Assembly (NCBI GenBank): GCA_020342235.1
Contig: CP073217.1
Location: 434,001-498,000 of the forward strand
Direction of reading: 5' to 3'
From: Saccharomycopsis phalli
Taxonomy: Eukaryota; Ascomycota; Saccharomycetes; Ascoideales; Saccharomycopsidaceae
DNA length: 64,000 nucleotides
Part shown: positions 5,154 to 61,442 of the stretch, piece by piece
Layout of the letters: each line of letters starts with the position of its first letter
Position numbering within the stretch: the first letter of the stretch is position 1
The notes under the pieces: model-generated
The model's database searches: none
Seen by the model: the letters and a program-made list of their open reading frames with translations, nothing else
What the model was told of the DNA's origin: nothing
Translations under genes and position numbers: made by a program

Positions 5154-5280
5154 GGTTGACGAATTCCTTGAGATTGAGGTTACGAATTCCTTGAGATTGA
5201 GGTTACGAATTCCTTGAGATTGAGGTTACGAATTCCTTGAGATTGAGGTTACGAATTCCTTGAGATTGAGATTGACGAGG
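5154..5280. repeat. Minisatellite, 23-bp unit, directly after the CYT2 stop
   Basis: About five copies of a 23-bp unit (TTACGAATTCCTTGAGATTG plus AGG) begin at the stop codon of CYT2 and form its 3' untranslated or terminator region. Copies are almost identical, so the array is young. Confidence 0.92.
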
Positions 5281-6540
5281 TCTTTTGAGATTGTGGTTTT
5301 GTATGAAATGCGAGCAATTTGCAAAATATAGTCTGAGGATCTGTGTTTGTAGAGATATTATTGTGCTTTGATGTAAAAGCTATGTAATTTTGAGTGGAAA
5401 AGTCTATATTAGGGTGTGTATGACTATTTTTGAAAGAGTAGGTTTGCTTGATTCAAGAGTGTTAATGAGATCACCTGACAGTATGCAGTCGAGTATGTAT
5501 ATCATTGGAATCAAGATTTAATCAAGAATTGAGCAAGAGTTGAGGTAAAAAGAATTGAGGTATAAATAATTGAGCTATGATGAATTGATGATGTAGGATA
5601 TAGAGAATGTAGAATAAATTAAATATTTGACAAGACCCGAAATGCAAAATACGTGAGACACATTTTCAGATACATGATCTACAATGTCCAGAGGTCTAGA
5701 AGCTCGGATTCCATCACTCATTGATGAAATAATAGACTCAGATGGAATTTTCAACATGAAACGTATTTGCCAATCCATTGATAAACTTGGTTTACCAGAA
5801 CATGTTGGAATATGATACTCCAAATGGCGAGATTCAGTCAATTTAACAAGGCACCAGGCTTACAAACCTCAATTACTGGGAATGGACAAACTGCTCAAAT
5901 TGGATTTAGTCATAGACAATGTAGCCACTTATAAGAACAATATGATTATTACAAGAGAATAAACATGATGAATATCGAAAGTTGTATCAGACCTCGAGGA
6001 ATTGGACAGAGTGGAGAATTTAACAAAGTAGGCTACCCATAGTGCCAATAATGACATGATAGTATCAGACAAATGATATCTTCTATAGTACTATAGTTGC
6101 TCAACGCTGACTAGAACAAAGTGCTTTGTATTGGCAAGTTAATCATTACGGGATTGCAAAATTCATTTCCTTACAGCATTGCCTTTTTCCCTTTTTATTC
6201 CAGTCTTTCAAGTACAAATTGCTAGACATTTTCAATTGTCACGCGAATATATTTTAGCTATTTACCAACTGTATCCTAGTTGACAAGATCTGTATGATGG
6301 AACATTATTCACATAGACCAGATATCAGAGGTATGTACATTGCTGATTATTGTACTGTTAGAGACTGTTGAATAATTCCTTTGTTGAATCTGGTACAGCA
6401 CAAACATTTGAGGGATTTTGAATGGACGATTTTCGACAGGTGGTGTATGAAATCACTGAGTTGAATTATTACGCAGTTTTCCAACAGATGGCAGTCAACA
6501 ATCAAAACAGTCAACAGTCAGTCAGCAAACAGTCAAAACA
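5281..6540. other. Intergenic region, one LINE relic
   Basis: AT-rich, no gene recognised. It contains the family B LINE fragment at 5620-5890 (separate entry). The remainder shows no feature I can name. It lies between the 3' ends of CYT2 and TIM10, so no promoter is expected. Confidence 0.6.
5620..5890 (+). mobile_element. LINE family B fragment (end of ORF and 3' region)
   Basis: Plus-strand translation around 5634-5690 gives DPKCK...ETHFQIHDLQCPEV, matching the Cys/His zinc finger near the end of the complete LINE ORF at 11830-11890 (DPKCPRC...FHDLSCP). The segment 5640-5860 is closely similar to the reverse complement of 14040-14290. The copy is short and decayed. An open frame on the other strand (5575-5841) is only its antisense. 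Confidence 0.7.
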
Positions 6541-6735
6541 GTCAATAGTCAATAGTCAATAGTCAATAGTCAATAGTCAATAGTCAATAGTCAATAGTCA
6601 ATAGTCAATAGTCAATAGTCAACAATCAATCAGTCAACAATCAATCAGTCAACAATCAATCAGTCAACAATCAATAGCCAACAGTCAATAGTCAACAACC
6701 AACAGTCAACAACCAACAGTCAATCAACCAACAGT
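6541..6735. repeat. 7-bp satellite (CAATAGT)n and derivatives, downstream of TIM10
   Basis: About eleven perfect copies of a 7-bp unit followed by variants (CAACAGT, CAATCAGT). It begins about 70 bp past the TIM10 stop, on the 3' side of the minus-strand gene. Confidence 0.9.
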
Positions 6736-6794
6736 CAATCAACCATAACTATCCACCCACCCTCCATTACATCTCTTGATACTTATATTCAGTC

Positions 6795-6802
6795 TATTTA
6801 CA
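6795..6802 (-). promoter_or_regulatory. Puf3-type site TGTAAATA in the TIM10 3' UTR
   Basis: On the minus strand, TGTAAATA starts 3 nt after the TAA stop of TIM10. UGUAHAUA is the recognition core of Puf3, which controls mRNAs for mitochondrial biogenesis in yeasts. The match is perfect in the core; the upstream C favoured by Puf3 is absent. Confidence 0.5.
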
Positions 6803-6805
6803 TAC

Positions 6806-7078: not shown

Positions 7079-7126
7079 TGCAATAAACCAAGGTACTTGA
7101 AAAGCGGTGTGAAAATTTGTCCCAAG

Positions 7127-7134
7127 TTACCCGG
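7127..7134. promoter_or_regulatory. Reb1-type site TTACCCGG between TIM10 and BFR1
   Basis: A perfect TTACCCGG lies in the 86-bp divergent promoter. Reb1 is a general regulatory factor that clears nucleosomes. The same motif or its TTACCCGC variant lies in the SPC97/aldolase and ATG7 promoters. Confidence 0.65.
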
Positions 7135-7164
7135 CCTGCGTGCGGCGGGCACAAGTTTTGAAAA

Positions 7165-8514: not shown

Positions 8515-8950
8515 ATTATGATTGTAGACGCCAATGTGATTGTAGATGCCAATATGTTGTTTGAAAAATGGTATTACTGTAGATGGTGGGTATTGAATAT
8601 GATATTAGATGTAGGATGTGATAGTAGATGTGAAGACGTAATTTGTAGATGTGGAATATAATTGTTGATGTGTAATGTGATTGTAGATGCGAATATACAA
8701 GTGTAGATGTGGAATATGATTATCGATGCGGAAAACATAGTTTGTAGATGTAGAGTAATTGTAGATGTGGAGTAGTTGTAGATGTGGAGTAGTTGTAGAT
8801 GTGGAGTAATTGTAGATGTGGAATAATTATAAATGTGGAGTAATTGTCTATGTGGAATACTTGTAAATGTGGAATAATTGTAGTTGCGAATATGATTGTA
8901 GATGTGGATTGTAGATGTGGATTGTAGATGTGAAATTGTAGTTGCCAATA
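8515..8950. repeat. Degenerate minisatellite after BFR1 (GTAGATGTGGA-type units)
   Basis: Roughly 25 imperfect units, mostly 17-19 bp, built on TTGTAGATGTGGAGTAA, start within 15 bp of the BFR1 stop. The middle copies are the most regular. The long minus-strand open frame 8574-8972 is an artefact of the repeat. Confidence 0.85.
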
Positions 8951-9239: not shown

Positions 9240-9390
9240 CACGAAGGATTCACCCTGGATCAAGAAATCACTCTGGATCAAGAAATCACCCTGGATCAAG
9301 AAATCACCCTGGATCAAGAAATCACCATGAAATCAAGAAATCACCATGAAATCAAGAAATCACCATGAAATCAAGAAATCACCATGGAAT
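9240..9390. repeat. Minisatellite, 18/19-bp units
   Basis: Four copies of CACCCTGGATCAAGAAAT (18 bp) followed by four of the variant CACCATGAAATCAAGAAAT (19 bp). The plus-strand open frame through it (9111-9368) is not supported as a gene. Confidence 0.88.
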
Positions 9391-9479
9391 CAATAGGTCT
9401 CCACTAGAATCAACCCCACTTCTTCTCAAATAGGCAAAGCTTAAACCGTATGATTCTACTCGTCTATCCTGGTAGTTCC

Positions 9480-10914: not shown

Positions 10915-12287
10915 ACGGAACAATAAAGGAAGAGTCCAAAGAGGTGAAACTACTAGGGATATCCTTAGACTCAAAACTTAGTTTCAGACAACACGTTGGG
11001 AACATGACACTTCGTTTGAAGAGAACCACTGGACGGATACAGGCCATTAGTCGCATCACCAATGGAACCCGAGGGAAGACCACGCTAATCTTGTTTAAGA
11101 CATGCGCGCTACCCCTCATCACATATGGACTAGAGATTTTCTACCATAAGTTAACCAAGACCCAGATCGAAGCCATCAGAGTATGTTACAACATTTCATT
11201 GCGTAATGCACTTGGCATGTTGAAACCGACCCTGACCGGAATCCTCAATATCGAAGCAGGGATGCTTCCGATCCAACTTCTTTTAAAACGAGCCGCAATA
11301 GAAAAGTGTGTGAGATGGTTCACTAACACCAACATAAAAAACCCTCTACAAGATAGCATCAATAAGCAAATAGTACTCGGGGTCACAAACCGGGACGCCT
11401 ACTCATACCCTCTCATACGAGAATCCTTTGAAAGCCTTGGCATAAGTGCGCCATACCAAAGATCATTTCAAGAAGCTGCATCAAATATAGATCATCATGC
11501 AGAAGTGTTAGTCCAAACCCATTCGGAACTGTCAGATAGTCAGAGTTCAGCCCTGCAGGGACGAAAGAAATGGGCCCTTAAAGACCAGATAAACAAAAAG
11601 ATGACCGAGGAATGGCAAAAACTAGTGGACACGGGCGAGATTACTCTCCCAGCCCACTATAGAACTCTACGCGGAACGGATTCACCGGTGGTTACCACCG
11701 CTAAGGATAAACTCCTACTAGCCGAGGCCTTAGCTGGCCCAAAGAATATTTTGAGCCTGATAAGCCAACTCCTAAGTGGAAAAAGTTTGGTATCATGTAC
11801 CATCAAGAAACAATTCAATCCCGAGTGTGACCCGAAGTGCCCTAGGTGCGACAATCCCTCCCCAACAATATTCCATGACCTATCATGCCCATGTTTAGAG
11901 GTATTCCGAACTCAGGAAACAATCGGCGAAGGCCTCACAACCAGAGCGCAGATTCGCCGCCTCTTTACAGACGCAAAATCAATTCATTCTCTTATAGGTT
12001 TCTACACGTTAGTGCTGGACGGGTAGACACCTTTTCCTTTTGCAGTACATAAGAAGGGCGGCCGGGCAGGTAGTCCCCCTCGGGGGGCGAGACTCCATAG
12101 CTCTTTCTGAGTCATCTCTCTCCAACAGTTCCTTAAAGATCAAGTCGAAAGTTTTTATCCCCATTCAAAGGGTTTTCTCTCGACTCCAAAATTAGCGGCG
12201 CCGTCCTTAGTTTTTTTAGACGGTGAAATATCAATCTCACCCTTCTGGGGAGCCTAGTATAGCTATAGAAGTAAATAAACATTATTA
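10915..12287 (+). mobile_element. LINE family A, 5'-truncated insertion with 14-bp target-site duplication
   Basis: A 1373-bp element flanked by TTATATACTTTAAG at 10901-10914 and 12288-12301. Part of the right copy may overlap the ATT-rich tail. It begins inside the reverse transcriptase ORF, so it is 5'-truncated as usual for target-primed insertion, and continues to the end of the ORF and a 260-bp 3' UTR. The UTR includes a GC-rich hairpin (CCCCCTCGGGGGG), GGAGCCTAGTATAGCTATAG and AATAAACATTATTATTAT. The open frame and perfect duplication suggest a recent insertion. Confidence 0.92.
10917..12026 (+). pseudogene. C-terminal part of LINE ORF2 (thumb region and zinc finger)
   Basis: 369 codons open from the truncation point to the stop. 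The start LLGISLDSKLSFRQHVGNM is the motif found just after the reverse transcriptase palm in I/Jockey/Tad-type LINEs. The middle is the typical helical region (LITYGLEIFYHKLTKTQ). Near the C-terminus CDPKCPRC...FHDLSCPC is a Cys/His zinc finger. I see no RNase H motifs in this part. There is no start codon of its own, so it is a remnant rather than a functional gene. The first ATG-like start (GTG at 10944) has no meaning. Confidence 0.88.
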
Positions 12288-14290: not shown

Positions 14291-14889
14291 TAAATCATTT
14301 CTTTAGCTTTCCATACTACATCCTCACTCAAATTGAAATCATGCATATAATTCACTATCCAATGCTAAAATACATTGGTTGTGTACTCAAACATCAACTG
14401 TATTCCTCTAGTCATACTCGGTACGCTGCCTAGACATGGTGCACCCTATTTAGCTATTCGAAAATGATTGTTGGTATGGTATACCCTGTTTAGTATTGTT
14501 GTCCAACTGTCTGGTGTTCAGATGCAGTTGGCTATTCAATAGTCTGTCCAACTGTCTGGTGTTCAGATGCAGTTGGCTATTCAATAGCCTGTCCAAGCAT
14601 CAGATGGCAAATGCTAGATATTTATGTAGCATGGACTATACCAGTTTTAGTCACATTAGACTGCCATTGGCAATTTCCGAGGAATTATTTATCGACTCGC
14701 TTTATCCAAGTTATTCCAAAATTATTCAAGTCAAAATCACCCAAGCCTCTTTATCCAAGTTACACCAAAATCATTCAGGTCATTTCAAAATCACTCACGA
14801 ACTCAATCATTTACGAATTCAATCATTCACAAACTCAATCATCCAATCCAATCATCATACAACTTCAATCAATTACAATCTTCCCATAA
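14291..14889. other. Intergenic region downstream of SPC97
   Basis: No gene. It contains a 45-bp tandem duplication at 14501-14597 (starting GTCCAACTGTCTGGTG, slightly over two copies, nearly identical). At 14700-14870 there are imperfect short repeats (CAATCATT, ATTCAAGTCA), immediately downstream of the minus-strand SPC97 stop. Plus-strand open frames here are built on these repeats. Confidence 0.65.
14501..14597. repeat. 45-bp tandem duplication
   Basis: Two copies of a 45-bp unit beginning GTCCAACTGTCTGGTGTTCA, with one visible difference (AATAGT versus AATAGC). It is recent. Confidence 0.88.
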
Positions 14890-17913: not shown

Positions 17914-17919
17914 GTCTAG

Positions 17920-18005
17920 CTGAATCGTAAAGTGAGGTGAAGTGAATCGCTAAATCGTACAGTGAGGTGAAGTGAATCGCTAAATCGCTAATCGCTAATC
18001 GCTGA
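17920..18005. repeat. Short repeats after the aldolase stop
   Basis: Two copies of a 32-bp unit (GTGAGGTGAAGTGAATCGCT core) followed by 8-bp repeats TAATCGCT, starting a few bases after the stop codon. Confidence 0.85.
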
Positions 18006-19263
18006 ATACTGTGATATATAATTATATAGTTATTGATGATGAATGGATTTGTAATACTGCCATGTCTCTTAATGTGTCCACACTTTCAAAATTCAATTCG
18101 TGAAAAGACCCTATATGCTATTAGGATCATGCATCTCTACATGGAAATCAGTTCCCATTCATCCGACCATTGCCAAATAGTCACACTGGATTATTTACCT
18201 TGCCAAAATGTCACTACCCACCGCAAATGGTGTAATAACGTCCACGTTTCTTGAGCAGTCGGATAAATGGATGATTATCGTCCTGTTGCTTGTCCATTTG
18301 TTTCAAACTCAGTGGGGTACACTAAATGATGCAAACTACAATAGTGTTTTGTTGACATTCCTTTACTGGTCATTTCATCCCACTTTTTCCATCCCAATGC
18401 ATCCAATGGCCAATACAAAACGTGGACCTGCTAATTTATTAGGCAGATGATTTATCAGCCAAATATGTTCAGCCAGATATTCTCAGCCAGATATTCTCAG
18501 CCAGATATGTTCAGCGAGATATGTTCAGCCAGATATTTTTGTGTGCACTATGTAATTTCACATCACTCTGGTAGTATCTACATCACTCTTGTAATATCCC
18601 GCATCAATTGGATTATCCTACTCAATCATGTTTATTTGCAGTCTACATCTGAGGGGTATTGGCGTGATATGCAGCATTACCAAACATCTCATAATCAGCA
18701 ATTAACCTACCATATAGGCTATCCTACCTCATTTGGATCTAGCCAATCTCTTTAAACGCAATGCTAATCAAATCTGAGAAAACACAGGGAACCATCGTCA
18801 AAAATAATGGTCACTACGTGGGATTGTAAATGCAAATTATAGCCCCGACTTGGCATTTCAAAAGACTGAAATACCAATACATTACCTTGGCCTGTCTTTT
18901 GAATGTCAAATGTGTGACATCAGTCCCACATTTACACTTCAATGTCTCAGATTGTTTTCAGAATAGACAAATACAATAATCTACAAATTTAATCCAAATG
19001 TAATCCAAATGACACTATAAAAGTCTGCCATCCACAAATCAATCCACGCACCCACCGAACTTTACCAATACAAACCTTTCTTCAACAACTGCATCACAAG
19101 TCCCCGAATATTTGCCAAACCATGTCATCTTTACATTATATAGTCATACAAAAATATCATCATTTGGCTCTCCTTTAAAGCCCATTGTCTGCCTCTGCAG
19201 GCCATCTGCAGTGCTTACTTAAGCAGGAGTGATGTTTGTTATACGCATCTTGACAGCAACATC
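18006..19263. other. Intergenic region upstream of the sugar transporter
   Basis: No gene recognised. It holds a tandem array of a 14-bp unit (AGCCAGATATTCTC, six copies, 18458-18540). TATAAAAG at 19016 lies about 240 bp before the transporter ATG, with another AT-rich TATA-like site at 19138. A long promoter suits a regulated nutrient transporter. Confidence 0.6.
18458..18540. repeat. Tandem repeat, 14-bp unit
   Basis: Six copies of AGCCAGATAT(G/T)(T/C)TC with few differences. Confidence 0.88.
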
Positions 19264-20916
19264 ATGTCCTACAACGAGGAACATCCCATATCGTATGACG
19301 ACAACAATTTATTGCTTGACGGCAATCTGGAACAGCTCAGTGAGCTAAATCCAACACGTTCCTTATCATATATCCTTACCCTCACTGTTATTCTTGGGGC
19401 TTTGCAAATGGCTTGGACAGTGGAATTCTCAGAAGGAACTCCATTTCTTTTATACCTCGGCATCTCAAAACAGTTGCTAGCGCTCGTCTGGATCGCTGGA
19501 CCAGTTTCCGGGATTTTTGGCCAGCCCATTGTTGGAATATTAAGCGATAATTCAAGCTGCAAGTACGGCAGAAGAAGACCATTCATCTGGGGTGGGTGGT
19601 TGGCCATTTGTGCTACGCTCTTGTTTATTGCCCACTCTGAAAGTATTATGGCTCTCTTTATGCCAAATGGCTCGCCAGATGCTATAAAAAATGCCACTCT
19701 TCCATATGCCTGTGCCTCCATATACGTCTTGGACTTTGCAATTGCGTCTTTCCAAGCAGCAGCAAGAGCATTGATCGTGGACTTGGTGCCAGCAAACCAG
19801 CAACAGGTCTCTAATGCATGGGCTGCTAGAATGATTGGGCTTTTTAACATCCTTGGATACTTTCTTGGTGCTTCAAACATTGTAAAATTTGCCCCGGGTG
19901 ACAATCAGTTAAAGGCATTAACTTTCTGGGCAGTAGTCATTCTCTCAGTTGTGACTTTGTGGGCATGCCTGTCTATTCACGAGTCAAACCCATTGAAAGA
20001 TCCTCTTCTCAAAGTCAGATCACAACGCTTACGAGGTGGCTTGTTGAAAAACTTGGCTGGGATTTACTCTCAAACGCTACAGAGCATTTCCAGACTTTCT
20101 CCGCAAGTCAGCATAGTCAACTATACAGAGTTTATGGCTTGGGTTGGGTACTTTCCGATGCTTTTTTACACCACCTCTTATGTGGGAGAATTGTACATTT
20201 TTGAAAAAGTAAACCAACGCTTGAATTCCGGTCTTCCTCCACTCTCTGACAGCGAAAAAAAGCTCTTGACTGAGCAGGGAACCCGTAGGGGTGCCACTGC
20301 GCTTCTTGTGCATTCTATCAGCTCGTTGGTTGTTACTTTTCTTGTTCCGTTGTTGGTGGGTCAAGCTGTTCCTACGCCAATACGAACACAGATACGATCT
20401 AAAGCCGCCAGATATTTGCCAAAAAACCTTTCAGTGAGACGTATTTGGAGTGCCTCTCATTTGATTTTTGTTTTTTGCATGGCGTCGACATTCTTTATAA
20501 AAACATCGGCAGCAGCGATACTCATGTTTGCATTCTTGGGAATCCCTTGGGGCTGTGCACTTTGGGCTCCATTTGTGCTTATTGCGGAAGATATTGCTGA
20601 TATCAAGGAGCAGAAGATATTGTACGAGCGACATCCAGTTCCTGATCGTCCCAAGGTACTTGAATACGAGCACAAGTCAGGGATCATTCTTGGGATACAT
20701 AATGTGTTTGTGAGTGCTCCCCAAGTGGTTTCGTCGTTATTGAGCAGCCTTTTGTTTCGTTTATTATCAGGGGAGCTTAATCCAGACGATAAGTTTCAGG
20801 GGAAGTTTGATGACAGTTTGCAGTGGGTGTTTCGATTCGGAGGTGTTATGGCTGCAGGTGCGTTTATGGTGTCACTAAAAGTCAAAGAAAGTTTTACAAG
20901 AGATGGTGAGTGGTAG
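19264..20916 (+). CDS. Sucrose/alpha-glucoside transporter, GPH family (MFS)
   Basis: A 550-aa polytopic membrane protein with about twelve hydrophobic segments. TM1 starts near residue 35 (ILTLTVILGALQMAWTVEFS). The GPI-type signature GPVSGIFGQPIVGILSD, followed by KYGRRRPFI, is characteristic of plant SUT and S. pombe Sut1 disaccharide:proton symporters (SDR...RFGRRRPFI). A long central loop contains YTEFMAWVGYFPMLFYTTSYVGE. It is probably a plasma-membrane proton symporter for sucrose or maltose-like sugars, but substrate is inferred from the family only. No other sugar-utilisation gene is adjacent, so there is no cluster evidence. Confidence 0.9.
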   Translation: MSYNEEHPISYDDNNLLLDGNLEQLSELNPTRSLSYILTLTVILGALQMAWTVEFSEGTPFLLYLGISKQLLALVWIAGPVSGIFGQPIVGILSDNSSCKYGRRRPFIWGGWLAICATLLFIAHSESIMALFMPNGSPDAIKNATLPYACASIYVLDFAIASFQAAARALIVDLVPANQQQVSNAWAARMIGLFNILGYFLGASNIVKFAPGDNQLKALTFWAVVILSVVTLWACLSIHESNPLKDPLLKVRSQRLRGGLLKNLAGIYSQTLQSISRLSPQVSIVNYTEFMAWVGYFPMLFYTTSYVGELYIFEKVNQRLNSGLPPLSDSEKKLLTEQGTRRGATALLVHSISSLVVTFLVPLLVGQAVPTPIRTQIRSKAARYLPKNLSVRRIWSASHLIFVFCMASTFFIKTSAAAILMFAFLGIPWGCALWAPFVLIAEDIADIKEQKILYERHPVPDRPKVLEYEHKSGIILGIHNVFVSAPQVVSSLLSSLLFRLLSGELNPDDKFQGKFDDSLQWVFRFGGVMAAGAFMVSLKVKESFTRDGEW

Positions 20917-21080
20917 CAGATGAAATAATCGAGAGGGTATAATTTGGCAGTAGATGAAATAATCGAGAGGGTTTAATTTGGCAGTAGATGAAATAATCGA
21001 GAGGGTTTAATTTGGCAGTAGATGAAATAATCGAGAGGGTTTAATTTGGCAGTAGATGAAATAACCGACAAGGTTTGATC
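20917..21080. repeat. Minisatellite, 34-bp unit, directly after the transporter stop
   Basis: About four and a half copies of a 34-bp unit (CAGTAGATGAAATAATCGAG plus AGGGTTTAATTTGG) begin at the stop codon. The last copy is diverged. Confidence 0.92.
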
Positions 21081-28749: not shown

Positions 28750-28904
28750 GATGTGAATATACTTGGCTAGGTTTGTAGGGTGTGATTACTTGTACGTTGA
28801 TTATTCGTATGTTAATTATTCATACAGTGATTACTCGTACGGTAATCCTAAAAATACAATCAATATACCACAGAAAATGCTACAGTAATAATAATATTCA
28901 TCTT

Positions 28905-35659: not shown

Positions 35660-35737
35660 ATTGATTACTGATCCACCATTGATCCACCATTAATCCACCA
35701 TTGATCCACCATTGATCCACCATTAATCCACTATTGA
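35660..35737. repeat. 12-bp tandem repeat abutting the ATG7 stop
   Basis: Six or so copies of TGATCCACCAT(T/A) end at the ATG7 stop codon, on its 3' side. Confidence 0.9.
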
Positions 35738-37771
35738 TCATTCCAACCACTCATCATCTGACCCATCTGGCGTTTGCATTTCAAATTCCAAAGCGGCCTT
35801 TTCGGCATCTTCTTGAACCTTACTCAAGCCACTAATATCCTCCACAAACTTCGGGTCTGCCAATGCCTTTTCCACAAAATCCCACCCATGATTTTCAAAC
35901 TCTTGCAACACAGGTAACGAGCACGCAGAACAATGTTTGTAATTGGGTGCCAGTAACTTGACGTTGCTGTAATTATGTAGAAACCCCCGGATCTGATGCG
36001 GAATACCCCCAAGAATATTTTCGGCATCGGAACTAGCAAATTGCCGTTGTGGATGTTGGAGAATTGAGACCATCAACTCCACAACTAACCCAGAAGCCAT
36101 GAGAGCAACTCCAGGTCTTGTGACTGTACACATCTGATCCAAGGTCCGGTCAGATAAGCTATCCGACGGAGCAAAGACGTCGTTGCAAAAATAACATCCA
36201 AGTCGAGAGGAAGTATTTGGGTTTGATTTATCAGATGCATTTGGGTTTGATTTATCAGACACATCTTGGCTTAATTTATCAGAGCCTTCACAATTTGACA
36301 ATGTAGTGTATTCTTTTCCAGACTTGTCCAATCCTCCGTGGCGCATGACAAGATAACTGTCAAACCCCAATGCAGCATTCAAGACAATCTTACCCTTGAC
36401 GTTGCCCAAAATTGTAGGCAACCATCGAGTCTCTCTTGAGTCCATAAGCAAGAAAATGACATCATGCTCGTCAACCAACTCGCATAATTTATCGAAATTT
36501 TCCTTGTCATGTTCATCCTTTGCAGGGTGACCAATCATTGGAATCTCTAAATTATATCCTTTGGAAACAACAGACGGGAAGATCCGGGTCAAAGAAGCTG
36601 CCGCAGCTTCAGCTTTTGGCTTCCCGCCATCTAAACAATCTTCAAAATTATACAATGACTGCCGCACAGGATTGGAAAAAGACACCTTACCGTTATCCAC
36701 AAAAGTAATCTTGGTGACTCCCCATCCCAACAAAGCACGCGAAACATATGAGCCCAACGTCCCTGCACCTAGCAATAAGCATCGTGTATCTTTGACAATG
36801 TCCAAGTCGATGTCGGGGATGATTCTCCATTTCATAAGCTTCAAGTTGAGATCGACTGCTTGGTCAGCAAGCAAATTAGGAGAAAGAAGCGACTTCAAGT
36901 CTGCAATTTTCGGCTGGAGCGAGCCACTGCTGGTTTTTTCCCAGCCAGATATTTTGGGAAGGCTCTGCATACTGGAGGACGAGCTGACGTCAAGAAAAAA
37001 TGACGAGCCATTGACTCGATACACCAACACCTGTACTTTGCTATACCCATAGTACAATAGCATGCTGAGAAAGTTCCGCAAGTACCAGGAAGGCACATTT
37101 TCGTAGGTGGATGCGTCAATAATCCCGACCCTGACTGAGCTGTTGCGCTTGTCATGAAGAACTAACTCATTAATAGCAATCGGCTGGTTATCTGAACCAA
37201 GAAGGAAAAAGTTGCGGTTCCTTGGATCGTCTTTTGCCAACCACAGCTGGATATTTGTATCAATAGCCAGGTCTTTCACGGGGGTGATACTTGATACCAG
37301 CCATTCGGAATGGAGCGAAGGAAAGGCAAACCAGTAATAAAACTTGAACTGCTTCAAATCAGAATATGACAACAATACAAACTGTGCTAATAGCTGTGGG
37401 TTATCAAGAACCTCGTTGCCCTTGAGCTTGTGGTACAATTTCTCCCCTGCACTAGCGAGAAACTCGTTCTTATCAGCAGCATAAAACGCTTCCTTGGTGT
37501 TTAAATTGGTCAAGCTTCCCGGAGCATACAAAACTGAGCCGCTGGAAAACGTCTTCTGGAACTCAGACGCAGGATCAGGAGCAAAACTAGCTTCTGTCAC
37601 GTTGATTATCGGAGCTTGGTTCCGGGCATAGTTCTTGATGTTGTAGTAGCCAAAAATCTCTTGCAGAGAAGTATCCAATTTAAACTCGTCCAATTTTAAC
37701 TCGCAGAGCTTTTGGAAAAAAGTTGAGTCTACAAACGAGTGCAAAGGCACAAATTTAAGTCGAGTAGACAT
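35738..37771 (-). CDS. ATG7: ATG7, E1-like activating enzyme for Atg8 and Atg12
   Basis: A 677-aa autophagy E1. The N-terminal domain begins STRLKFVPLHSFVDSTFF. The adenylation domain contains LLGAGTLGSYVSRALLGWGV...FVDNGKVSFSNPVRQSLY, and the catalytic cysteine lies in DQMCTVTRPGVALMAS at about residue 548. HCSACS near the C-terminus is close to the tail. An inserted SDKSNPN-type repeat lies just before the catalytic cysteine segment (about 36200-36290). Two ATGs are adjacent: 37777 (adds Met-Ile) and 37771 (MSTRL, preferred). A Reb1-type site lies 43 bp upstream and a 12-bp tandem repeat directly downstream. Confidence 0.95.
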   Translation of the reverse strand: MSTRLKFVPLHSFVDSTFFQKLCELKLDEFKLDTSLQEIFGYYNIKNYARNQAPIINVTEASFAPDPASEFQKTFSSGSVLYAPGSLTNLNTKEAFYAADKNEFLASAGEKLYHKLKGNEVLDNPQLLAQFVLLSYSDLKQFKFYYWFAFPSLHSEWLVSSITPVKDLAIDTNIQLWLAKDDPRNRNFFLLGSDNQPIAINELVLHDKRNSSVRVGIIDASTYENVPSWYLRNFLSMLLYYGYSKVQVLVYRVNGSSFFLDVSSSSSMQSLPKISGWEKTSSGSLQPKIADLKSLLSPNLLADQAVDLNLKLMKWRIIPDIDLDIVKDTRCLLLGAGTLGSYVSRALLGWGVTKITFVDNGKVSFSNPVRQSLYNFEDCLDGGKPKAEAAAASLTRIFPSVVSKGYNLEIPMIGHPAKDEHDKENFDKLCELVDEHDVIFLLMDSRETRWLPTILGNVKGKIVLNAALGFDSYLVMRHGGLDKSGKEYTTLSNCEGSDKLSQDVSDKSNPNASDKSNPNTSSRLGCYFCNDVFAPSDSLSDRTLDQMCTVTRPGVALMASGLVVELMVSILQHPQRQFASSDAENILGGIPHQIRGFLHNYSNVKLLAPNYKHCSACSLPVLQEFENHGWDFVEKALADPKFVEDISGLSKVQEDAEKAALEFEMQTPDGSDDEWLE

Positions 37772-37821: not shown

Positions 37822-38896
37822 GAATGGTATGACCAGGTGGGTATATTGTATTTAATTATATTAGTCTTGTTGGTAACCCAAAATATTGGGTTAATTATCG
37901 ATATACGCGGAAAACTATTTGATTTATATGGGACTCCTGTTGGACAAGATGTAGTGTATTATTTCAGCAGAGACGTTGGCCTTTTACTATTTGGTTTACT
38001 ATTTGGCTTACTATTTGATTACTATTTGATTACTATTTGATTACTATTTGATTACTATTTGATTACTATTTGGCTTTGTTGTAATACTTCTTTTACTATT
38101 GTATTACTTTTGATTCTTTCAGCTTGTATTAATTCTAGTTTTGCTGTGTAAAAGGCTGATGTTCACATTGACATGTAAAGGTCTTCATGTACAGTTGAAT
38201 CTATGGTGATTGAAATTAGTCCTTGTGTTGTGGTTCAAACCGTGTGTAATTCAATTAACGTTAGGTTAAACAATATGACTGAATCCAATTAGAACATTTT
38301 ACTAAAATTTAGTTTATTGAGAAATTAGTATTGGGTGTATAGCATGTTCAAGAGATGACTGAATGCTTAATATATTACCATTGCTCCTATCAGGCGTAAC
38401 AGAGTTTGGAACTCATTACAACAGATTGACGAGTTTGGAACTAATTACAACGGAATGACATGTTCTATCTAAACTAAAAGCAATCAAGAAAGTTGACAGT
38501 TTATACAATTGATGAATTTACAATACCGAGACTGTACTAGCAAATTGTGTATCAATGGAGATGCTCAATCAATTTCTTTATATTTAAATTATCATAATCT
38601 AACGATTCAACCAAAGTTTAGTGACATAAATATACGTTCCAGTTGATTTTTGCAGTCACTTGTCACATCTTTTTGGAACTTTTGTAGAGAAATGCCCATG
38701 ATCTTACATGGTAACTCATTAACCAGGCATTCAAGCCATGGTTGTTTTGATTATAATCGCACACCAAATAAGCCACAAAGCGGCACTACAAAGGCAACAA
38801 TTACTAGATTATTATAATTACTATCCACCAAAAAACGACCCCAATTGTACCAGGTAGTCTTCTCTGAACTCCATATAAACCCCCCACTGACAGTGC
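37822..38896. other. Intergenic region upstream of ATG7
   Basis: No gene supported. A 67-codon open frame at 37837-38040 is mostly hydrophobic because it runs into the 12-bp repeat TACTATTTGATT (37985-38080, about eight copies). A tRNA-like B-box string GGTTCAAACC at 38231 has no matching A box. The remainder is AT-rich. Confidence 0.6.
37985..38080. repeat. Tandem repeat, 12-bp unit TACTATTTGATT
   Basis: About eight copies, the central five nearly perfect. Confidence 0.9.
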
Positions 38897-44371: not shown

Positions 44372-44508
44372 AGTATACTATTGGTGAGATAGCTCAACTC
44401 TACTGCTAGGCATACTATTGGTGAGATAGCTCAACTCTACTGCTAGGCATACTATTGGTGAGATAGCTCAACTCTACTGATAGGCATACTATTGGTGAAA
44501 TAGTTGAT
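44372..44508. repeat. Minisatellite, 37-bp unit
   Basis: About three and a half copies of a 37-bp unit (GCATACTATTGGTGAGATAG plus CTCAACTCTACTGCTAG), almost identical except for the last. Confidence 0.92.
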
Positions 44509-44985: not shown

Positions 44986-45229
44986 AAAGTAGTTGACATT
45001 CCTTGTCAAAGGTACTCTCTGGTATGACAGTTTTTTGACAATTTTCTTGGTTGGCAATTTTATAATTTGATGGCAATTTTAGTGTTGTTCTTGTTTTGTA
45101 TTATTCTTGTTTAAATGCTACTCTTGCACATTTGCAATTACGTTTACACATGACGATGATTCCTGCTCCAAGTCTAGCAAATCATACAATAATTTACAAA
45201 GTAGTTGTCAACGGCTTTTAATTTATACT

Positions 45230-45428
45230 TTTATACACTACATTCCTCGTCTCTTTATATCTTCTCTCCTCTACACTACACTTTTTCACTACATTCCTCT
45301 TCTCTTCACTACACTTTTCCACTACATTCCTTCTCTTCACTACACTTTTCCACTACATTCCTTCTCTTCACCTCTCTACACCAATACTCATTCTTCCATA
45401 CTCAATCATACATTCTCCAAATACAACA
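45230..45428. repeat. Pyrimidine-rich imperfect repeats downstream of TMA22
   Basis: Repeats of CACTACA(C/T)TTTTC and CTACATTCCTTCTCTT, about 17-26 bp apart, end within 60 bp of the TMA22 stop on its 3' side. The plus-strand open frames here are artefacts of the repeat. Confidence 0.75.
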
Positions 45429-46151: not shown

Positions 46152-47285
46152 ATGAGTTTGAGTGAGGTGAGTGTTGAACGAGCAAAAATGGCATGTGACG
46201 AGTAAATGAAGATGGATAATTTGCCAATACAATAAATATCGCAATATTATGAGGCTGCTGTTGAATAATTTACCACTCCGATCAAGATTGTCAAACATTG
46301 GCAACATCACTAACATAAGCTTGTGCTGTTTCTCGATACAGATAACCAGGTGGTCAAGACTATTGCCCTCCAAAACCTTCTTGGCTACTCGACAAGCCAC
46401 AAGCTGGAATTCAAAGTCAATGGCTTGAAACCCGTGGGCGATCTCATTAATATTTCTCTGGAAAAGGGTACAACCAACCAGAAAGTTGCGCTTAGTATTC
46501 TTGTCAATCTCTCGGACGACTCAAAGGTACGTCAATTCATCTTGCTGGATCCAGATTTCATGGCTGTTCTTTACCAAGAGCTTTTAGCTGATGGCAAAAA
46601 CTCTGCCTTGGTTTCCATGCTCTTGGCAAACTTGTCGTTTGAGCAAACATTTGACATTTCGCAGGACTCGGTGAAGAAGTTGTTGGCCAAATATGTCACC
46701 AACAAGCCAGACCACGACTACCTTAGCTATGTGTTTGTGAATTATACCAACAACCTAAAGGGCCGTGACTTTTTCTCGGAGCCTAGCAACTTGCTTAGTA
46801 TCATTGTCTTCAACGACAGTGACAATACCAAGCGAAAAGAGGCCAGTGGAAAGATTCTCAAGAACTTGCTCTTCAACACAAACAACCATCTTGCATTGAT
46901 AAACAACCCAGAAGTGAAATTGCTCACTTATATTCTTTCGCCGTTGATTTCGTCCAGCTACAACTTGGACGACGATGAGGAGTTCCAATTGCCTGATGAG
47001 TTGCAATTTTTGGAAAACAAGCAGCGTGAAGCAAGCCCAGAGCTCTTGGCGGTGTATTTGGAGTGCTTGTTGCTTCTTTGCACCACGCGACCAATCCGGG
47101 AAATTCTCCGGGAAAAGAGCACGTATCCGATCATCAGAGAGTTGCACAAGTCGATTGATGATGTGTTGGTGAGTGATTTATGTGAGCAATTGGTGCAGCT
47201 TTTGATGCGGGATGAGGCTCCAGAGGAGGAGGCCAAAGAAGAGGACAAAGAGGAAGATGATGACAAGATTATTGAGGTTTTGTAA
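46152..47285 (+). CDS. HGH1: HGH1, eEF2-folding cochaperone (ARM/HEAT repeat); one intron
   Basis: The coding sequence is 46152-46166 joined to 46320-47285, 326 aa. Exon 1 encodes MSLSE; the intron 46167-46319 (153 nt) has GTGAGT and CACTAAC-ATAAG ends. The joined start MSLSELVLFLDTDNQVVKTIALQNLLGYS corresponds to [25 protein letters not shown] of Hgh1. The C-terminal FQLPDELQFLENKQREASPELLAVYLECLLLLCTTRPIRE is a conserved block of the family. It binds newly made eEF2 together with TRiC to help its folding. It is somewhat shorter than the baker's yeast protein (394 aa) and ends in an acidic tail. It is divergent from TMA22. Confidence 0.94.
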
Positions 47286-47409: not shown

Positions 47410-47520
47410 GTGTATAAGCGAGTGATGGAAATTTTGGGAGACGCGAGTGATGGAAATTTTGGGAGAAACGAGTGATGGAAATTTTGGGAAATGTGAGAGA
47501 TGGGAAGTTGTGAGGAAATT
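47410..47520. repeat. Tandem repeat of about 26 bp downstream of HGH1
   Basis: Three to four imperfect copies of GAGTGATGGAAATTTTGGGA plus a few bases, 125 bp past the HGH1 stop. Confidence 0.85.
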
Positions 47521-50107: not shown

Positions 50108-51572
50108 CACATGTTAATAGATGAATGGTAGAGTTGTAGGTGGATTGAAGTTGCAAGTGGAAGATTTTCATTCTAGTTGATTTATCATTGATTTATTGTT
50201 GATTCTACGTCACTTCTACATCAATTATATACTTCTACATCAATTCTATACATCTACATTTATTCTCTAGTTTCACCAAGTCATAAGCTAAACCACTAAA
50301 CACCTGATAAACCCAAGTCCATGGTCAAACTACCACATTACAAAGTACGCAACAGCACAATCAGCGACAAGATAAATGCCCTATTCATCCCAAGTGCAGC
50401 TCCTGATATTTTTCCAAATATTTCAAGAGCTAGCCATATATAGCACTCCTAAATCGTTAGCAATTTGTGGTCATGGTACTGCAATACCGGTAAACTGGCT
50501 ACATTAGTGTTGAGCAGCTACAAGTGCAAGAGCATATGATATCGTGGACAATTTACTTTATTAACTAATAAAGTCCATATCTATCTCAATTATTATACAA
50601 GACTCAAACTCCTACAATTACCATTGGTTATACCAAAATACATTCCTGACCATTTGACGCAATATCAAGACATCTGCGCCTCATGTCTTTGTCTCTCCGT
50701 TCCTGGCTATTTTGCTACCATATAAAGCCTGCCTTGCTCTCAAATAGGTCAAGGAAATATATTCCAACCGTCTTATCATCACCTATATTAGTTGCTATAT
50801 TACAGTCTATTAAATAATACTACGCTACATGCTATTATATATTAAACTGGATGAAGCCAGCGTTGCAGACAGTAATTATTTCTCCTGGTACTCAAATTCT
50901 CCGCATTAAATCAAAGTAGTCATTTCCATATTAGTCACCCAGCAAACATTTTAAATGTATTTTTAATGAGCGATTATAGCTCTATTTTTCAATTATGAAT
51001 CATCGTGGCATGAAACTGTTCTCCTGCATACATTGACCTGAGACAATTAATATAGTAGTGATCACGAGATTAATTCTCAATTTCTCGGTAATTTTAAGCG
51101 TAGTAATTAACCAGGCCATTGCGATTTCTATATAATCATCCATTTAATCATCCCTTCGAGTATTCATTTAAGTATCTCATCTTACATCAAAGCTACTCCA
51201 CTGGTTTTTACTATTGAATCACCCTATTTACTGAGTGGCTAGCAAATGCGGTATTATTTTGGTCAACCTTACGCATCGCGTTGGACCCTTTATCATGTAT
51301 GTGCCTTACTTTTTCCGGACCTTACATCCTCTTGAGGCAATCCGGCTTCATTTGAAAATACAATAATTATACCATCTGTGAAAGGTCCTTTAGTCTCACT
51401 GCCCATTATTTCTCTAATATTCTTTCTCCTTTTTTGTGCCTTCTCGTTAGACTCTCCTTTTGGTTTTCTTTGTTTTCATCACCCTTTTCATCTTCTTCCG
51501 CAACTTCGGCTGCAGTTTAGTGCACATACCGCATAGCCAATGGAAAATGCCTGATCCGTTAAATTTTACACC
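50108..51572. other. Long intergenic region upstream of the cell-wall protein gene
   Basis: About 1.5 kb without a gene. Imperfect 19-bp repeats (CTTCTACATCAATTATATA) at 50204-50265 lie 100 bp past the TFG1 stop. The rest is AT-rich. ACCATATAAAGCC at 50718 is TATA-like but no ORF follows. The length suggests a complex promoter for the GPI-type protein. Confidence 0.6.
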
Positions 51573-56737: not shown

Positions 56738-59700
56738 TTAGTCCCAGTCATTTCGAATGCGGCTTTCCCGTGCCCGAAACTGGTGCTCCTCATTCTGCAC
56801 TGTCAACTGGATCGCCTCGCCCATGTTAGAAAACGCCTTGGCCGATCCCTTCTCCTTGACGACGATGATCGCCGATTTCCGCTTGAGCGCAGTCCGCTGC
56901 TCGCCACGACTCGCCAACTTCACTGGCTTGATGGTGATCTTCACTCTGAGCAGCCGTCCGCCCGCCAACTTGGCTGGAACCACACAGGTGATGCCGACCG
57001 AGTCAAACTTCACCTTGGAGACGCTACCTTCCTTCAAGCGGAGGGTCAACGAGTTGCGGATCAACGTCTGGACGTCCTCCACAAGAAGAAACGACTCGTA
57101 GCGGAACTCCTCGTTGTGCGCCGTAGGCACAAAGTTGTTGATAACCTTTGAGAACCAGCTCTGCTTGGTCTTTGGATTGGTTATGATCGACGACGCTGCA
57201 GTCGTCGTCTGGATCGACGACGCAGTATCAATCTGGCTCTGGAGCTTCGACTTCACGCTGTAACTGTCGTCCTTGCTCGTGCTGCTGATGGCTGTAGTGG
57301 CACTTGTGGCTGTAGTCGGCGAACTTACCGACCGGTTACCCACAGACGCAGCAGAATCGCTTTCCGGAGCCACGCTCATGGTAACGGCGCTGGCATTCAC
57401 AATGATGTTTGCTCCTTTTGCCACCACCGACTTGGTCTGCGTCTTGGTCTTTGGAGGCCGTGGCGCGTCTCGATGCGGCACCAACGCCCCGCCGAACCGC
57501 GGCTTCTTGTCGTCTGCTTCGAGGTTCTGAGTTGGCTGTGGCGAGTTGCTCAAGTCGGCCGAGTGGCTTGTTGTGTTATTCAGATGAGCAGACGGACTGG
57601 CTGAGTGGGTAGTGGAGCCGGCTGAATGTGAGGCACCAGCTGAATGTGAGGCACCAGCTGAATGTGAAGCACTGGTTGAATTAGTTTCCGTGCTTTTTTC
57701 TATGCTCTTGTTCGGCTCACTTGTCTCTGCCTCATGCTTTTCCGCATCCTTTGCCTTTTCTATCTTTTCTGCATCCTTTGCCTTTTCTATCTTTTCTGCA
57801 TCCTTTGCCTTTTCTATCTTTTCTGCCTTTTCCAACTTTTCTGCCTGCTCCGCCTTTTCTCGCTTACTTATTTCGTTACTTGCACCGCTCATTCCATCTC
57901 TCTTGTCACTCACCTCGTGCTTCTCGTCTCTGCCACTCTTTACTTTATTTCCACTTGTTTCTTTATTTCCACTCGTTTCTTTATTTCCACTCGTTTCTTT
58001 ATTTCCTCTCATTTCTTTACTTCCTCTCATTTCTTTACTTCCACTCATTTCTTTATTTCCACTCATTTCTTTATTTCCACTCGTTTCTTTATTTCCTCTC
58101 ATTTCTTTATTTCCACCCCCTCCTCCGTGTCTCAGATCAAGCTTAAACTCAAACACCTTACTCAGCAAAGCCTCAATACTATCCCGCTCGCCAAAATTAA
58201 AGATCCGCGCCTTGGCATCGTCCTTGGTAATCAAATTAAAGTTAAAGTTGCTGCTCACGCTCTTGCTCTGCCCAAGACTCTCCACCGCGTCCAGAAACTT
58301 GTCCTCAACCCGCCGCTGCTGCAAGAGCCCCTGGTTCTCGAGCTCCAACATCCGCGCCTTCTCCTTCAACTCGCGCACTTTCAACGTCACCGAGTTCGTC
58401 TTGATCGCCTCGATCCGCTGCTGCACTTTGCGGAGATTCTCCTGCTCCCGCTTCAACTCGTCCTCAATCACCGAGTTGCTCTTGCCAAACACTTGCTCGC
58501 AAAAAAAGGCAAAGTCCGTGGTGCTGAGCACCGACTTGTCTTCAGACAAAATAGACGGCACCGATGGGACTGGAATCTGCGGCTTCTTGCTGCGCTTCGC
58601 CAACGACCGCTTGGACTTCCCGCGAATAAGCGACTCGGTCTCGCTCTTGCGCTGCTTCTTCTTGGGCGAGTGGATCAGGGGTTGCGAGCCCTGTGGGGCG
58701 ATTTGGTCGATCAAGGCAACGTAGTTTGGGATCGAACCCATGGAAAACGCATGGAAGCTGTCGCGTTTCGACGTCGACTTGATGATGACGTCTTGCAGGG
58801 CGTCGATGTTCGGGTAGTTTTTGATGTTGTAGATGCTGTTGTAAGGACTGCTGTTCTTGAACGACTTGAAGCTGTTGCTGGACTTGACCCGCAGGTGGAA
58901 CGAGATGCCCTTGCGGAACAGCGACGATGCGCTGATCACAAGATGGCCCTCAATGTCACGTGTCTTCTTCCGCACGTTCTGGTTGCTCCGCGACTTGGGC
59001 AAGTCGTTGATGCGCAGCAAGCTGTACTTTGACTGGGCCAATTTCTTGTAAGATGTTGACCGGGCACGCGCCTTTTTGCTCAAGGGCTCGGTGGATATCT
59101 GGGTGACTTTGTTGCCCGAATCGTTGACATAGGTCGTAGACACAATCAGCTGGCTCTTGGTCATGGCCAACTTCTTGTCGTTGACCAAATCGCGGCCCGT
59201 GACCTCGCCCTCGGTCTGCATTAGGCTCTTTTTCTTCTTTTTGCCCGTCTTCAGCACCGCGTCGCTATGTTCCTGGCGGTACTTCAAGAGAAGATAGTAG
59301 AAGAGCTTTTCCGCGTTCTCGTCACTGCTCAGCAACCGCTCGACGACCTTGGCACGCTTTTCGCCATGCCACAACGTCTGCAAGTTCTTGAGGATCTCCT
59401 TGTCGATTTTCTCCGGGGGAATCGGCTGCTTCATGATGTTCTTGGGGAGAGGCGGCTCCATGTAGTTGCGCATCTTCTTGTTCCGCGGATAGTAGTAGCC
59501 CATGTCCGGGTACTTCGCCAATAGCGGGTGCGCGAGAATCTCCTCCATCGTAATCCGCTTCTCCGGGTTGATGGTGAGCATCCGCTTGATCAAGTCACGT
59601 GCCTCCAGCGACACGTAGCTTGGGATCCGGAAGATGCCGCTTCGCACTTTCGCCAAGAGCCGCGTGAGATGGTCGTCGTCAAACGGAAGATGGCCCGTGA

Positions 59701-60613
59701 GAAGCGCAAACAAGATGATCCCGCACAGCCAAATGTCGCTTGGTGCTCCATGGTAACTTTCGCCCATGACGACTTCAGGTGACGCGTAATGAGGCGAACC
59801 GCACGACGTCTTGAGCATTTTGTTGGTGACTTCGAGCGCAGCCATGCCAAAATCCGCGATCTTGATGTTGTGGTTCTTGTCCAAGAGCAAGTTCTCCGGC
59901 TTCAAGTCGCGGTGGCAGATGTTGAACGAGTGGCAGTAGTTGATGCCCAGAATGATCTGCTTGAAGTAGTGCACCGCCTCCCGCTCCTCTAGCCGCACCT
60001 GCTTGATGAGGTAGTTGAACAACTCCCCAGACTCGACATACTCCAAAATCAAGTACAACTCGCCCCGGTTCTCCCACACATCGTACAACGCCATGATGTT
60101 CGGGTGCGAAATCAACTTCATGATGATGATCTCCCGCTCAATGCCGCTGTTGTCCACTCCATGCCCCTTGTCCTTGAACGTGCTCTTGGGAATGATCTTC
60201 ACCGCCGCCAACTGCCCGGTCTTTGAGTGTTTCGCCAATCGCACTCGGCCAGTGGCTCCGCGGCCCAACGTCCGGCCCAACTTCCAAGGCCCCACGTAGT
60301 TCTTCTTGGCCTTCTTGGTGTACGAAGACGTAGTCACGGTCGAAAGCCGCTTGGAGTCATCCCGGTCGATGTTGGTGTGCACCTGCGATATCATGTGCTC
60401 GGGAATCACAATCTCGTCCTGGTTGACGTCCTCAAACCCATCCTGCCGCTCGGGGGACCCGTTAGTGTGGATCTGCTGCCGCACCTTCTTGTCGCCGCGG
60501 GTGTCGATATTGGTAATATTTTCTAGCGCCAGTCGAGTCTCGCTGTGTTCGCCGGTGGCTCGTGTGCCGGAAGGCGCCACCGTATCGCCCAGACCTTCCG
60601 CATGGTCCATCAT
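56738..60613 (-). CDS. HSL1: HSL1-type Nim1-related protein kinase (HSL1/GIN4/KCC4 family)
   Basis: 1291 aa. The kinase domain spans about residues 108-372: GRGATGRVRLAK glycine loop, AAVKI lysine, HRDLKPENLLLD catalytic loop, ADFG, SCGSPHYASPE activation segment. VWENRGELYLILEYVESGELF and CHSFNICHRDLKPENLLLDKN match Hsl1 more closely than Gin4. A shared block follows (LQTLWHG...EKLFYYLLLKYRQEHS). The C-terminus (VSKVKFDSVGITCVVPAK...LRVKITIKPVKL) is KA1-like, for membrane binding. These kinases act at the septin collar and inhibit Swe1. The linker has three in-frame repeat arrays. The residue after DIW is a CTG codon that must be Ser. Adjacent ATGs at 60613 and 60610. Confidence 0.9.
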   Translation of the reverse strand: MMDHAEGLGDTVAPSGTRATGEHSETRLALENITNIDTRGDKKVRQQIHTNGSPERQDGFEDVNQDEIVIPEHMISQVHTNIDRDDSKRLSTVTTSSYTKKAKKNYVGPWKLGRTLGRGATGRVRLAKHSKTGQLAAVKIIPKSTFKDKGHGVDNSGIEREIIIMKLISHPNIMALYDVWENRGELYLILEYVESGELFNYLIKQVRLEEREAVHYFKQIILGINYCHSFNICHRDLKPENLLLDKNHNIKIADFGMAALEVTNKMLKTSCGSPHYASPEVVMGESYHGAPSDIWLCGIILFALLTGHLPFDDDHLTRLLAKVRSGIFRIPSYVSLEARDLIKRMLTINPEKRITMEEILAHPLLAKYPDMGYYYPRNKKMRNYMEPPLPKNIMKQPIPPEKIDKEILKNLQTLWHGEKRAKVVERLLSSDENAEKLFYYLLLKYRQEHSDAVLKTGKKKKKSLMQTEGEVTGRDLVNDKKLAMTKSQLIVSTTYVNDSGNKVTQISTEPLSKKARARSTSYKKLAQSKYSLLRINDLPKSRSNQNVRKKTRDIEGHLVISASSLFRKGISFHLRVKSSNSFKSFKNSSPYNSIYNIKNYPNIDALQDVIIKSTSKRDSFHAFSMGSIPNYVALIDQIAPQGSQPLIHSPKKKQRKSETESLIRGKSKRSLAKRSKKPQIPVPSVPSILSEDKSVLSTTDFAFFCEQVFGKSNSVIEDELKREQENLRKVQQRIEAIKTNSVTLKVRELKEKARMLELENQGLLQQRRVEDKFLDAVESLGQSKSVSSNFNFNLITKDDAKARIFNFGERDSIEALLSKVFEFKLDLRHGGGGGNKEMRGNKETSGNKEMSGNKEMSGSKEMRGSKEMRGNKETSGNKETSGNKETSGNKVKSGRDEKHEVSDKRDGMSGASNEISKREKAEQAEKLEKAEKIEKAKDAEKIEKAKDAEKIEKAKDAEKHEAETSEPNKSIEKSTETNSTSASHSAGASHSAGASHSAGSTTHSASPSAHLNNTTSHSADLSNSPQPTQNLEADDKKPRFGGALVPHRDAPRPPKTKTQTKSVVAKGANIIVNASAVTMSVAPESDSAASVGNRSVSSPTTATSATTAISSTSKDDSYSVKSKLQSQIDTASSIQTTTAASSIITNPKTKQSWFSKVINNFVPTAHNEEFRYESFLLVEDVQTLIRNSLTLRLKEGSVSKVKFDSVGITCVVPAKLAGGRLLRVKITIKPVKLASRGEQRTALKRKSAIIVVKEKGSAKAFSNMGEAIQLTVQNEEHQFRARESRIRNDWD
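57620..58125 (-). repeat. Three in-frame repeat arrays in the HSL1 linker
   Basis: From the N-terminal side: GNKEM(S/R)/GNKETS (15-18 bp units, about ten copies, 57945-58125); EKIEKAKDA (27 bp, three to four copies, 57745-57850); SAGASH (18 bp, three to four copies, 57620-57680). All keep the frame. The antisense frames 57612-58724 and 57734-59032 are by-products. Confidence 0.88.
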
Positions 60614-61329
60614 AGAGACTGTGTTGTGAAACGCCCAGATGAAACAAAGTCAGGCAGAGAAAAAACGATGCCTGTGTGCCACGAATCCCAGGAAAAAAAG
60701 TCACGGGTTCTCTTGTCTCGCTAATGAACGTATAGATTAGCCCCGCTGCAAGTATCTCTCTTTGGCTGTCGAAACAGAATCTCCCAGTTTCGCCGTGTGT
60801 TAGCAACAAATTGAGATTTCCGCTTGACAAAAAATACCTAGCGCCATGCATGGGCTCCTAATCGGTCTCATGTAAGGCAGGGTGACCAAGCATGTCTAGG
60901 TGTCCATACCATGGCTAGAAATATATATATATATCCTATCCAATATTATAAAAACTATTTTTGCCGTAGCCCCACCATCCTCGCCCTGTCGTTTCTTCTG
61001 CGTTTTTTTTTCCCTCCTTTCCTGATTCACAGCGTGTACCCCTCCTGGGTGCCTCTCGGTATCATCTTGCTATTGTTATGCCGGCTTTTCTGTTCCACTC
61101 TGTCACTTTCTGTGTGTCGCTTTTCTTTTCATCCCTTTATTGTTTGTATTGTCACCGTACTGTGGTAAGTTTCCATGCGTTTTCTATGCTTCTAAATATC
61201 AACTGCATTTCACTCCACGGCTGCTACAGTTTGTTTATGTTTGTTTATTATTATTTACCATCTACATTTTAATTTCACCGCCACGTTATACCTTGGACTA
61301 CTATTTTACTAGTTTACTTGAAACTTCGC
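60614..61329. other. HSL1 upstream region
   Basis: No gene. It contains an ATATATATAT run at 60922, and pyrimidine-rich DNA on the plus strand from 60960 to 61330, upstream of HSL1. Several small plus-strand frames here are pyrimidine-run artefacts. Confidence 0.6.
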
Positions 61330-61442
61330 CTCACACTTTTGCTTTCTCACACTTTCGCTTTCTCACACTTCCTCACACTTCCTCAAACCTCCACTCACTT
61401 CATCACACCTCCACTTACAATTCCAACACCATATATTGTACT
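61330..61442. repeat. Pyrimidine-rich imperfect repeats (TCACACTTTCGCTTTC, TCACACTTCC)
   Basis: Repeats of 9-17 bp ending at the stop of the membrane-protein gene, on its 3' side. Confidence 0.75.

Follow-up and report, generated by a model that had tools for sequence, protein, structure and literature searches.

Minisatellite arrays just after stop codons in Saccharomycopsis phalli are mostly richer in G than in C on the sense strand

Minisatellites of budding yeasts are known mainly from within cell-wall genes, and how minisatellites originate is an open question. Their units are defined as 15-100 bp in an extract of PMC3618361. Extracts of other papers describe tandem repeats in about 25% of Saccharomyces cerevisiae promoters (Vinces et al. 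2009, cited in PMC3899988 and PMC3887541) and place most repeats of land plants in 5' untranslated regions (UTRs) (PMC3887541). For repeats of 1-2 bp across eukaryotes, content shifts at translation stops, with C repetitiveness falling after stops except in animals, according to passages of PMC11686069. Here we describe longer-unit arrays in the yeast Saccharomycopsis phalli, studied in a stretch of 64,000 nucleotides (the window; bases 434001-498000 of contig CP073217.1, here contig C6) and elsewhere in the same genome. Many of these arrays lie just after stop codons, and most of those carry more G than C on the sense strand of the gene they follow. We tentatively take them for locally born minisatellites whose location selection may filter, while transcription would promote or retain G-rich-sense arrays at gene ends.

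All counts come from one genome (14.15 Mb in 8 contigs), sampled as the window and as a non-window set of 26 stretches of 10 kb, 24 of them over seven contigs (20 of the 24 on C1-C3) and two adjoining the window. Arrays were called with Tandem Repeats Finder (TRF), and P values are nominal, uncorrected for multiple testing. The original prediction named twelve genes of the window as followed by arrays and implied enrichment after stops relative to starts. TRF finds a tandem array after the stop in all 12, with near edges from -6 to +140 bp (Table 1). The enrichment extends beyond the window, where 15 of 92 stops and 2 of 87 starts have an array edge within 50 bp (P=0.0015); in the window 9 of 21 stops and 0 of 20 starts do. 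The start side thus lacks the enrichment expected of promoter tandem repeats. At 50-150 bp the contrast between stops and starts is lost outside the window (10/91 stops, 10/87 starts; in the window 4/21 and 3/20). The contrast within 50 bp persists at TRF scores 80 and 120.

In the window and the first 24 stretches taken together, 2.8% of called coding sequence and 10.5% of all other DNA consist of tandem repeats. Their coverage is 14.9% in the 50 bp just after stops and 0.7% in the 50 bp just before ATGs; at 50-100 bp it is 19.1% and 4.3%, and beyond 100 bp 9-17% on the stop side and 6-12% on the ATG side. A k-mer repeat measure that does not use TRF is 0.13-0.20 over the 150 bp that follow stops and 0.10-0.16 beyond them, and falls to 0.007-0.03 within 75 bp upstream of ATGs. 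As arrays are nearly absent from the roughly 75 bp before an ATG, the stretch after a stop is the closest freely occupied site to a gene.

The original prediction missed a strand rule: arrays close to stops have more G than C on the sense strand of the adjacent gene. This is true of 31 of the 36 with nonzero skew (n=38; the two ties were left out of sign tests), 12/13 in the window and 19/23 outside it. G is thus in excess on the predicted non-template strand, the orientation of R-loop-prone DNA. From their distance to the stop we infer that the arrays themselves are transcribed. Of 35 arrays between convergent genes, 27 have the skew sign expected from the nearer stop; within 250 bp 19 of 21 do (window 5/6, elsewhere 14/15), or 20/22 if a zero-skew array is counted as agreement. 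No such bias is seen in arrays that lie 150-400 bp from a stop (9/18) or farther away (26/48), or in those whose nearest gene end is a start (3/9 and 27/53). Skew is 0.43 for arrays 0-100 bp from stops and 0.18 at array-free ends (P=0.002). In stretches where GC content at third codon positions (GC3) is at least 0.5, the values are 0.44 with arrays (n=26) and 0.18 without (n=49; P=0.0005).

Whether arrays are drawn to 3' ends was examined in two ways. A count-based placement test, in which arrays were placed at random and arrays clipped at gene borders were included, finds 8 arrays at most 50 bp from a stop in the 20 intergenic intervals of the window, where 1.2 are expected (0/1000 trials). 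Outside the window it gives 15 against 7.8 (P=0.002), or 15 against 10.7 or 8.3 when 100 or 150 bp before ATGs are barred (P=0.027 and 0.001). In a rotation test, repeat coverage was rotated within intergenic regions after removal of 100 bp before each ATG. Coverage in the 150 bp after stops is 0.310 in the window where 0.116 is expected (0/1000 rotations; P<=0.007 for the window tests), and the pooled set at 150 bp gives P=0.014. Outside the window the rotation test shows no excess at gene ends (0.156 against 0.153, P=0.44-0.62). We gave this non-window result more weight because the window itself suggested the hypothesis. The non-window excess of the placement test is mild and was given less weight, as it counted clipped arrays and the rotation tests lend it no support.

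The period is divisible by three in 38 of 38 in-gene arrays and in 41 of 121 intergenic ones (periods below 5 omitted). Open reading frame (ORF) calling favors in-frame arrays, so part of this frame filter reflects gene recognition. Since the coding periods are all in frame and the non-window rotation shows no gene-end excess, array position is mostly a matter of where arrays are missing: the promoter-proximal zone and out-of-frame coding DNA. An added attraction to 3' ends may exist but is unproven, and position alone does not require an expansion process there.

GC3 ranges from 0.30 to 0.73 among the 10-kb stretches (L009-L034) and the window, and intergenic repeat density tracks it (rho 0.65, P=1e-4, 29 units). 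Arrays are found throughout the sampled genome, most of them in GC3-rich stretches. Of 38 gene ends in stretches with GC3 below 0.5, 2 have an array at most 100 bp from the stop; in the other stretches 26 of 76 do (P=0.0005). Across three GC3 classes the G>C skew is 0.07, 0.28, and 0.36 at gene ends and -0.02, 0.05, and 0.13 at fourfold sites. From what is generally known of biased gene conversion, high GC3 may mark recombination-rich DNA. One low-GC3 stretch (L017) holds two array pairs, 393-512/1858-1978 and 5335-5428/9632-9725, that are 93% and 100% identical; they are perhaps a mobile element.

The 38 stop-proximal arrays have a median period of 21.5 bp (range 7-67) and a median of 3.75 copies. 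They match the usual description of minisatellites, with two arrays of period 7 at its lower edge and a few of about 2 copies. That the units differ and form no dispersed family, as originally described, was borne out. There are 18 similar pairs among 177 arrays, and in a genome-wide search of three window arrays, which skips simple repeats and very common words, two had a single site and the third had weak relatives at one other site. A dispersed repeat family was thus rejected, the units being mostly local. The third array is the main BFR1 array, with relatives of 76% at C4:984222-984369. Array polarity was absent among 23 arrays (P=0.85), and no shared period or strong shared motif was found among the arrays or the 3' flanks. 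In the 0-150 bp flanks of 113 genes, UGUAAAU is present in 9 (3.3 in shuffles); together with a mild excess of UGUA it is a possible RNA-binding signal.

RNA:DNA hybrid stability was predicted from energy tables. The hybrid is predicted to be more stable for sense than for antisense RNA in 26 of 37 stop-proximal arrays (P=0.0006), with no strand preference in the other three array classes. GGG runs outnumber CCC runs by 128 to 67 in the 0-150 bp 3' flanks. The sense RNA of the arrays folds more stably than the antisense, though like shuffled sequence, which argues against selection for open RNA. TMA22 was added by hand for the final array, skew, motif, and hybrid counts.

The asymmetry does favor a transcription-linked component. 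A bias directed by the gene needs more than position, and transcription, which exposes the non-template strand, would be its simplest source. In the reading we tentatively prefer, tandem duplications would arise widely, mostly in GC3-rich domains, and the observed distribution would result from selection removing arrays from reading frames and promoters. Transcription at 3' ends may then promote or retain those duplications in which the displaced non-template strand is rich in G. The simplest route would be through RNA:DNA hybrids close to the terminator, which would leave G-rich single strands open to slippage or duplicative repair, and the resulting array would lengthen the untranslated or terminator region at small cost. 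A more specific proposal, which we regard as doubtful, is that termination zones are birthplaces of minisatellites, where gene-end hybrids in GC3-rich and perhaps recombination-rich domains expose the G-rich non-template strand. If so, each array would record which way and how far its gene is transcribed, with the strand flipping where convergent units meet.

Several results weigh against a part for transcription. Besides the non-window rotation test, TFG1 and four other stop-proximal arrays have the opposite sign. Array-free gene ends are themselves skewed (0.26 at 0-50 bp and 0.14 at 50-100 bp, fading by about 200 bp), so some of the bias is inherited composition; for decayed arrays as the source of the skew at array-free ends there is only a weak correlation (rho 0.24, P=0.045). 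Fourfold coding sites also turn toward G over C as GC3 rises, and a general composition force could therefore act. The skew was first noticed in pooled data, so its non-window check was not blind. Coding sequence is nearly as hybrid-prone as stop-proximal arrays (predicted -0.042 and -0.053 per bp), yet it lacks out-of-frame arrays, and the 16.9 kb of 0-150 bp flanks contain no G-quadruplex (G4) motif. The idea of a transcription-linked expansion at 3' ends, raised in the original prediction, therefore stands in part: the strand asymmetry speaks for it, while the non-window rotation and the loss of the stop/start contrast at 50-150 bp do not.

The gene ends could instead be a refuge, with random duplications, mostly in GC-rich domains, purged from promoters, 5' UTRs, and frames, and with a skew copied from the composition of gene ends. 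This explanation is possible and ranks close behind the one we prefer. The exclusion zone before ATGs, the frame filter, the missing 3' attraction in the non-window rotation tests, and the skew of array-free ends are all consistent with it. It fits less well with arrays being clearly more skewed than array-free ends, GC3-rich stretches included, and with the rotation excess near stops in the window and in the pooled set at 150 bp. It is unlikely that the arrays are functional 3' elements, retained because they help 3' end formation or mRNA control by binding RNA factors or slowing polymerase. Their place and direction would suit a 3' UTR or terminator, UGUA is found in the 0-150 bp flanks of 85 of 113 genes (71 in shuffles, sd 5.4), and in yeast R-loops delay polymerase and Rat1 ends such transcription, as stated in an extract of PMC11039981. 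However, the arrays share no unit, period, or strong motif, their sense RNA folds like shuffled sequence, and they lie within 100 bp of the stop at only 28 of 114 gene ends. The role in termination that had been suggested for them gains no positive evidence from these data.

That gene calling or the repeat finder produced the pattern as an artefact is very unlikely. Genes were ORFs picked by a codon-usage score without transcripts, so that introns and small genes are missed and starts are guessed; ORFs of fewer than 100 aa or with a low score were excluded (TIM10 and GPH were retained by hand), and ORFs and intergenic intervals with N were omitted (2500 N in L016). Stops are independent of the choice of start, though, the effect is stable at TRF scores 50, 80, and 120 and without TRF, and 9 of 10 window genes submitted to Pfam give a match. 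In addition, ORFs with a repeat content of at least 40% and arrays with more than half of their length inside a gene had been removed. Least likely of all are remnants of coding repeats left by gene shortening. Some arrays do overlap the final codons (edges -2 to -67), and coding arrays share a sense skew (0.20). Among the 38 stop-proximal arrays there is no enrichment for periods divisible by three (remainders 0/1/2 in 9/16/13), which disfavors such an origin.

Table 1. Arrays called by TRF after the twelve named genes of the window, with the in-gene arrays of the kinase gene as a contrast case. Edges are relative to the stop; G and C are counts on the sense strand.
Array	Position	Strand	Unit (bp)	Edge (bp)	Sense G, C	Remark
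CYT2	5149..5298	+	23	-5	G42 C17	from stop codon on; single genome site
TIM10	6492..6742	-	7	+63	G60 C27	
BFR1, short duplication	8519..8553	+	18	+16	G9 C5	
BFR1, main array	8643..8941	+	17	+140	G90 C8	
SPC97	14789..14880	-	16/32	+9	G27 C2	imperfect
Aldolase	17919..17987	+	30	+5	G21 C9	
GPH-type transporter	20911..21076	+	34	-6	G48 C12	from stop on; single genome site
UBR1	28783..28841	+	15	+33	G10 C8	
ATG7	35669..35739	-	11/33	-2	G24 C5	at stop
TMA22	45227..45387	-	31	+41	G60 C1	
HGH1	47416..47503	+	25	+130	G34 C4	
TFG1	50202..50259	+	19	+94 (+104 at TRF score 50)	G1 C15	
DUF1774 gene	61330..61415	-	16/20	+30	G38 C2	
Kinase gene	57737..58116	-	27 + 18			in-gene; both units multiples of three; contrast case

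Among the arrays of Table 1, that of TFG1 is the lone exception in the window to the strand bias. The TMA22 array, pyrimidine-rich on the plus strand, is purine-rich in the sense of its minus-strand gene. The short BFR1 duplication has a 21-bp match to the adjacent main array. The gene names agree with Pfam matches to cytochrome c/c1 heme lyase (CYT2), Tim10/DDP protein, gamma-tubulin complex protein (SPC97), class II aldolase, MFS/MFS_2 transporter, HGH1 (DUF383/DUF384), TFG1 (TFIIF-alpha), and DUF1774. The BFR1 protein had no match in the Pfam search, and the putative TMA22 gene was identified by eye from its open frame. The UBR1 and ATG7 proteins match solved structures. Against the best solved structure, their scores rise when CTG is read as serine (UBR1 329.4 vs 312.2 bits, ATG7 557.5 vs 554.8), so S. 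phalli probably reads CTG as serine. The HGH1 frame is open upstream of its first called ATG (46314-46560), so the gene probably has an additional 5' exon.

Other arrays lie away from stops and had not been mentioned earlier, for example at 736-850, 1083-1200, 9250-9393, 18455-18537, 37984-38072, and 44375-44503. One, at 4234-4289, is 81 bp upstream of the CYT2 start. TRF also places arrays within genes at 4472-4580, 27910-28038, and 40693-41034, in addition to those of the kinase gene, which sit inside ORF 56738-60613; a kinase domain match lies on the same contig. The first of these, a 33-bp array in the CYT2-like heme-lyase gene, encodes about 5 Cys-Pro-Val repeats near the N-terminus. ORF 11004-12026 (340 aa) has no Pfam match, and by eye we take it to resemble the end of a retroelement polyprotein. 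An Rfam scan of the window gave no match.

The arrays resemble the minisatellites, or variable number tandem repeats, of yeasts and other eukaryotes in being local, imperfect, made of units of about 7-67 bp, and unrelated between loci. They differ in lying along gene ends and in having a strand bias directed by the gene. Immunoglobulin switch regions offer a partial parallel, being tandem repeats that are transcribed and whose non-template strand is G-rich. The switch regions undergo programmed recombination by dedicated enzymes, which is not known to occur at the S. phalli arrays. Similar to the promoter repeats of S. cerevisiae, as excerpted, the arrays adjoin genes in a compact yeast genome, whereas the start side is poor in S. 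phalli. The 1-2 bp repeats of PMC11686069 likewise change in content at stops, but the passages of that paper deal with monomer and dimer motifs rather than minisatellites and hold no sense-strand comparison of convergent genes. Among the titles listed in literature searches, mostly outside subscription journals, none reports post-stop minisatellites with a gene-directed sense-strand bias. Shifts at gene ends for 1-2 bp units and promoter repeats are known already.

A genome with many arrays of separate local origin, their strand bias governed by the adjacent gene, would allow a direct test of the part of transcription in the origin of minisatellites. If the bias is only inherited composition combined with promoter avoidance, the arrays would still be a clean example of selection deciding where repeats survive. 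The closest parallel for the strand rule comes from S. cerevisiae, where R-loops and instability both increase when runs of G lie on the non-transcribed strand, according to passages of PMC4737143. In both systems G on the non-transcribed strand marks the orientation, unstable in S. cerevisiae and the common one at S. phalli gene ends; the sequence of that study forms G4 DNA, whereas the S. phalli flanks carry no G4 motif and their hybrids are predicted.

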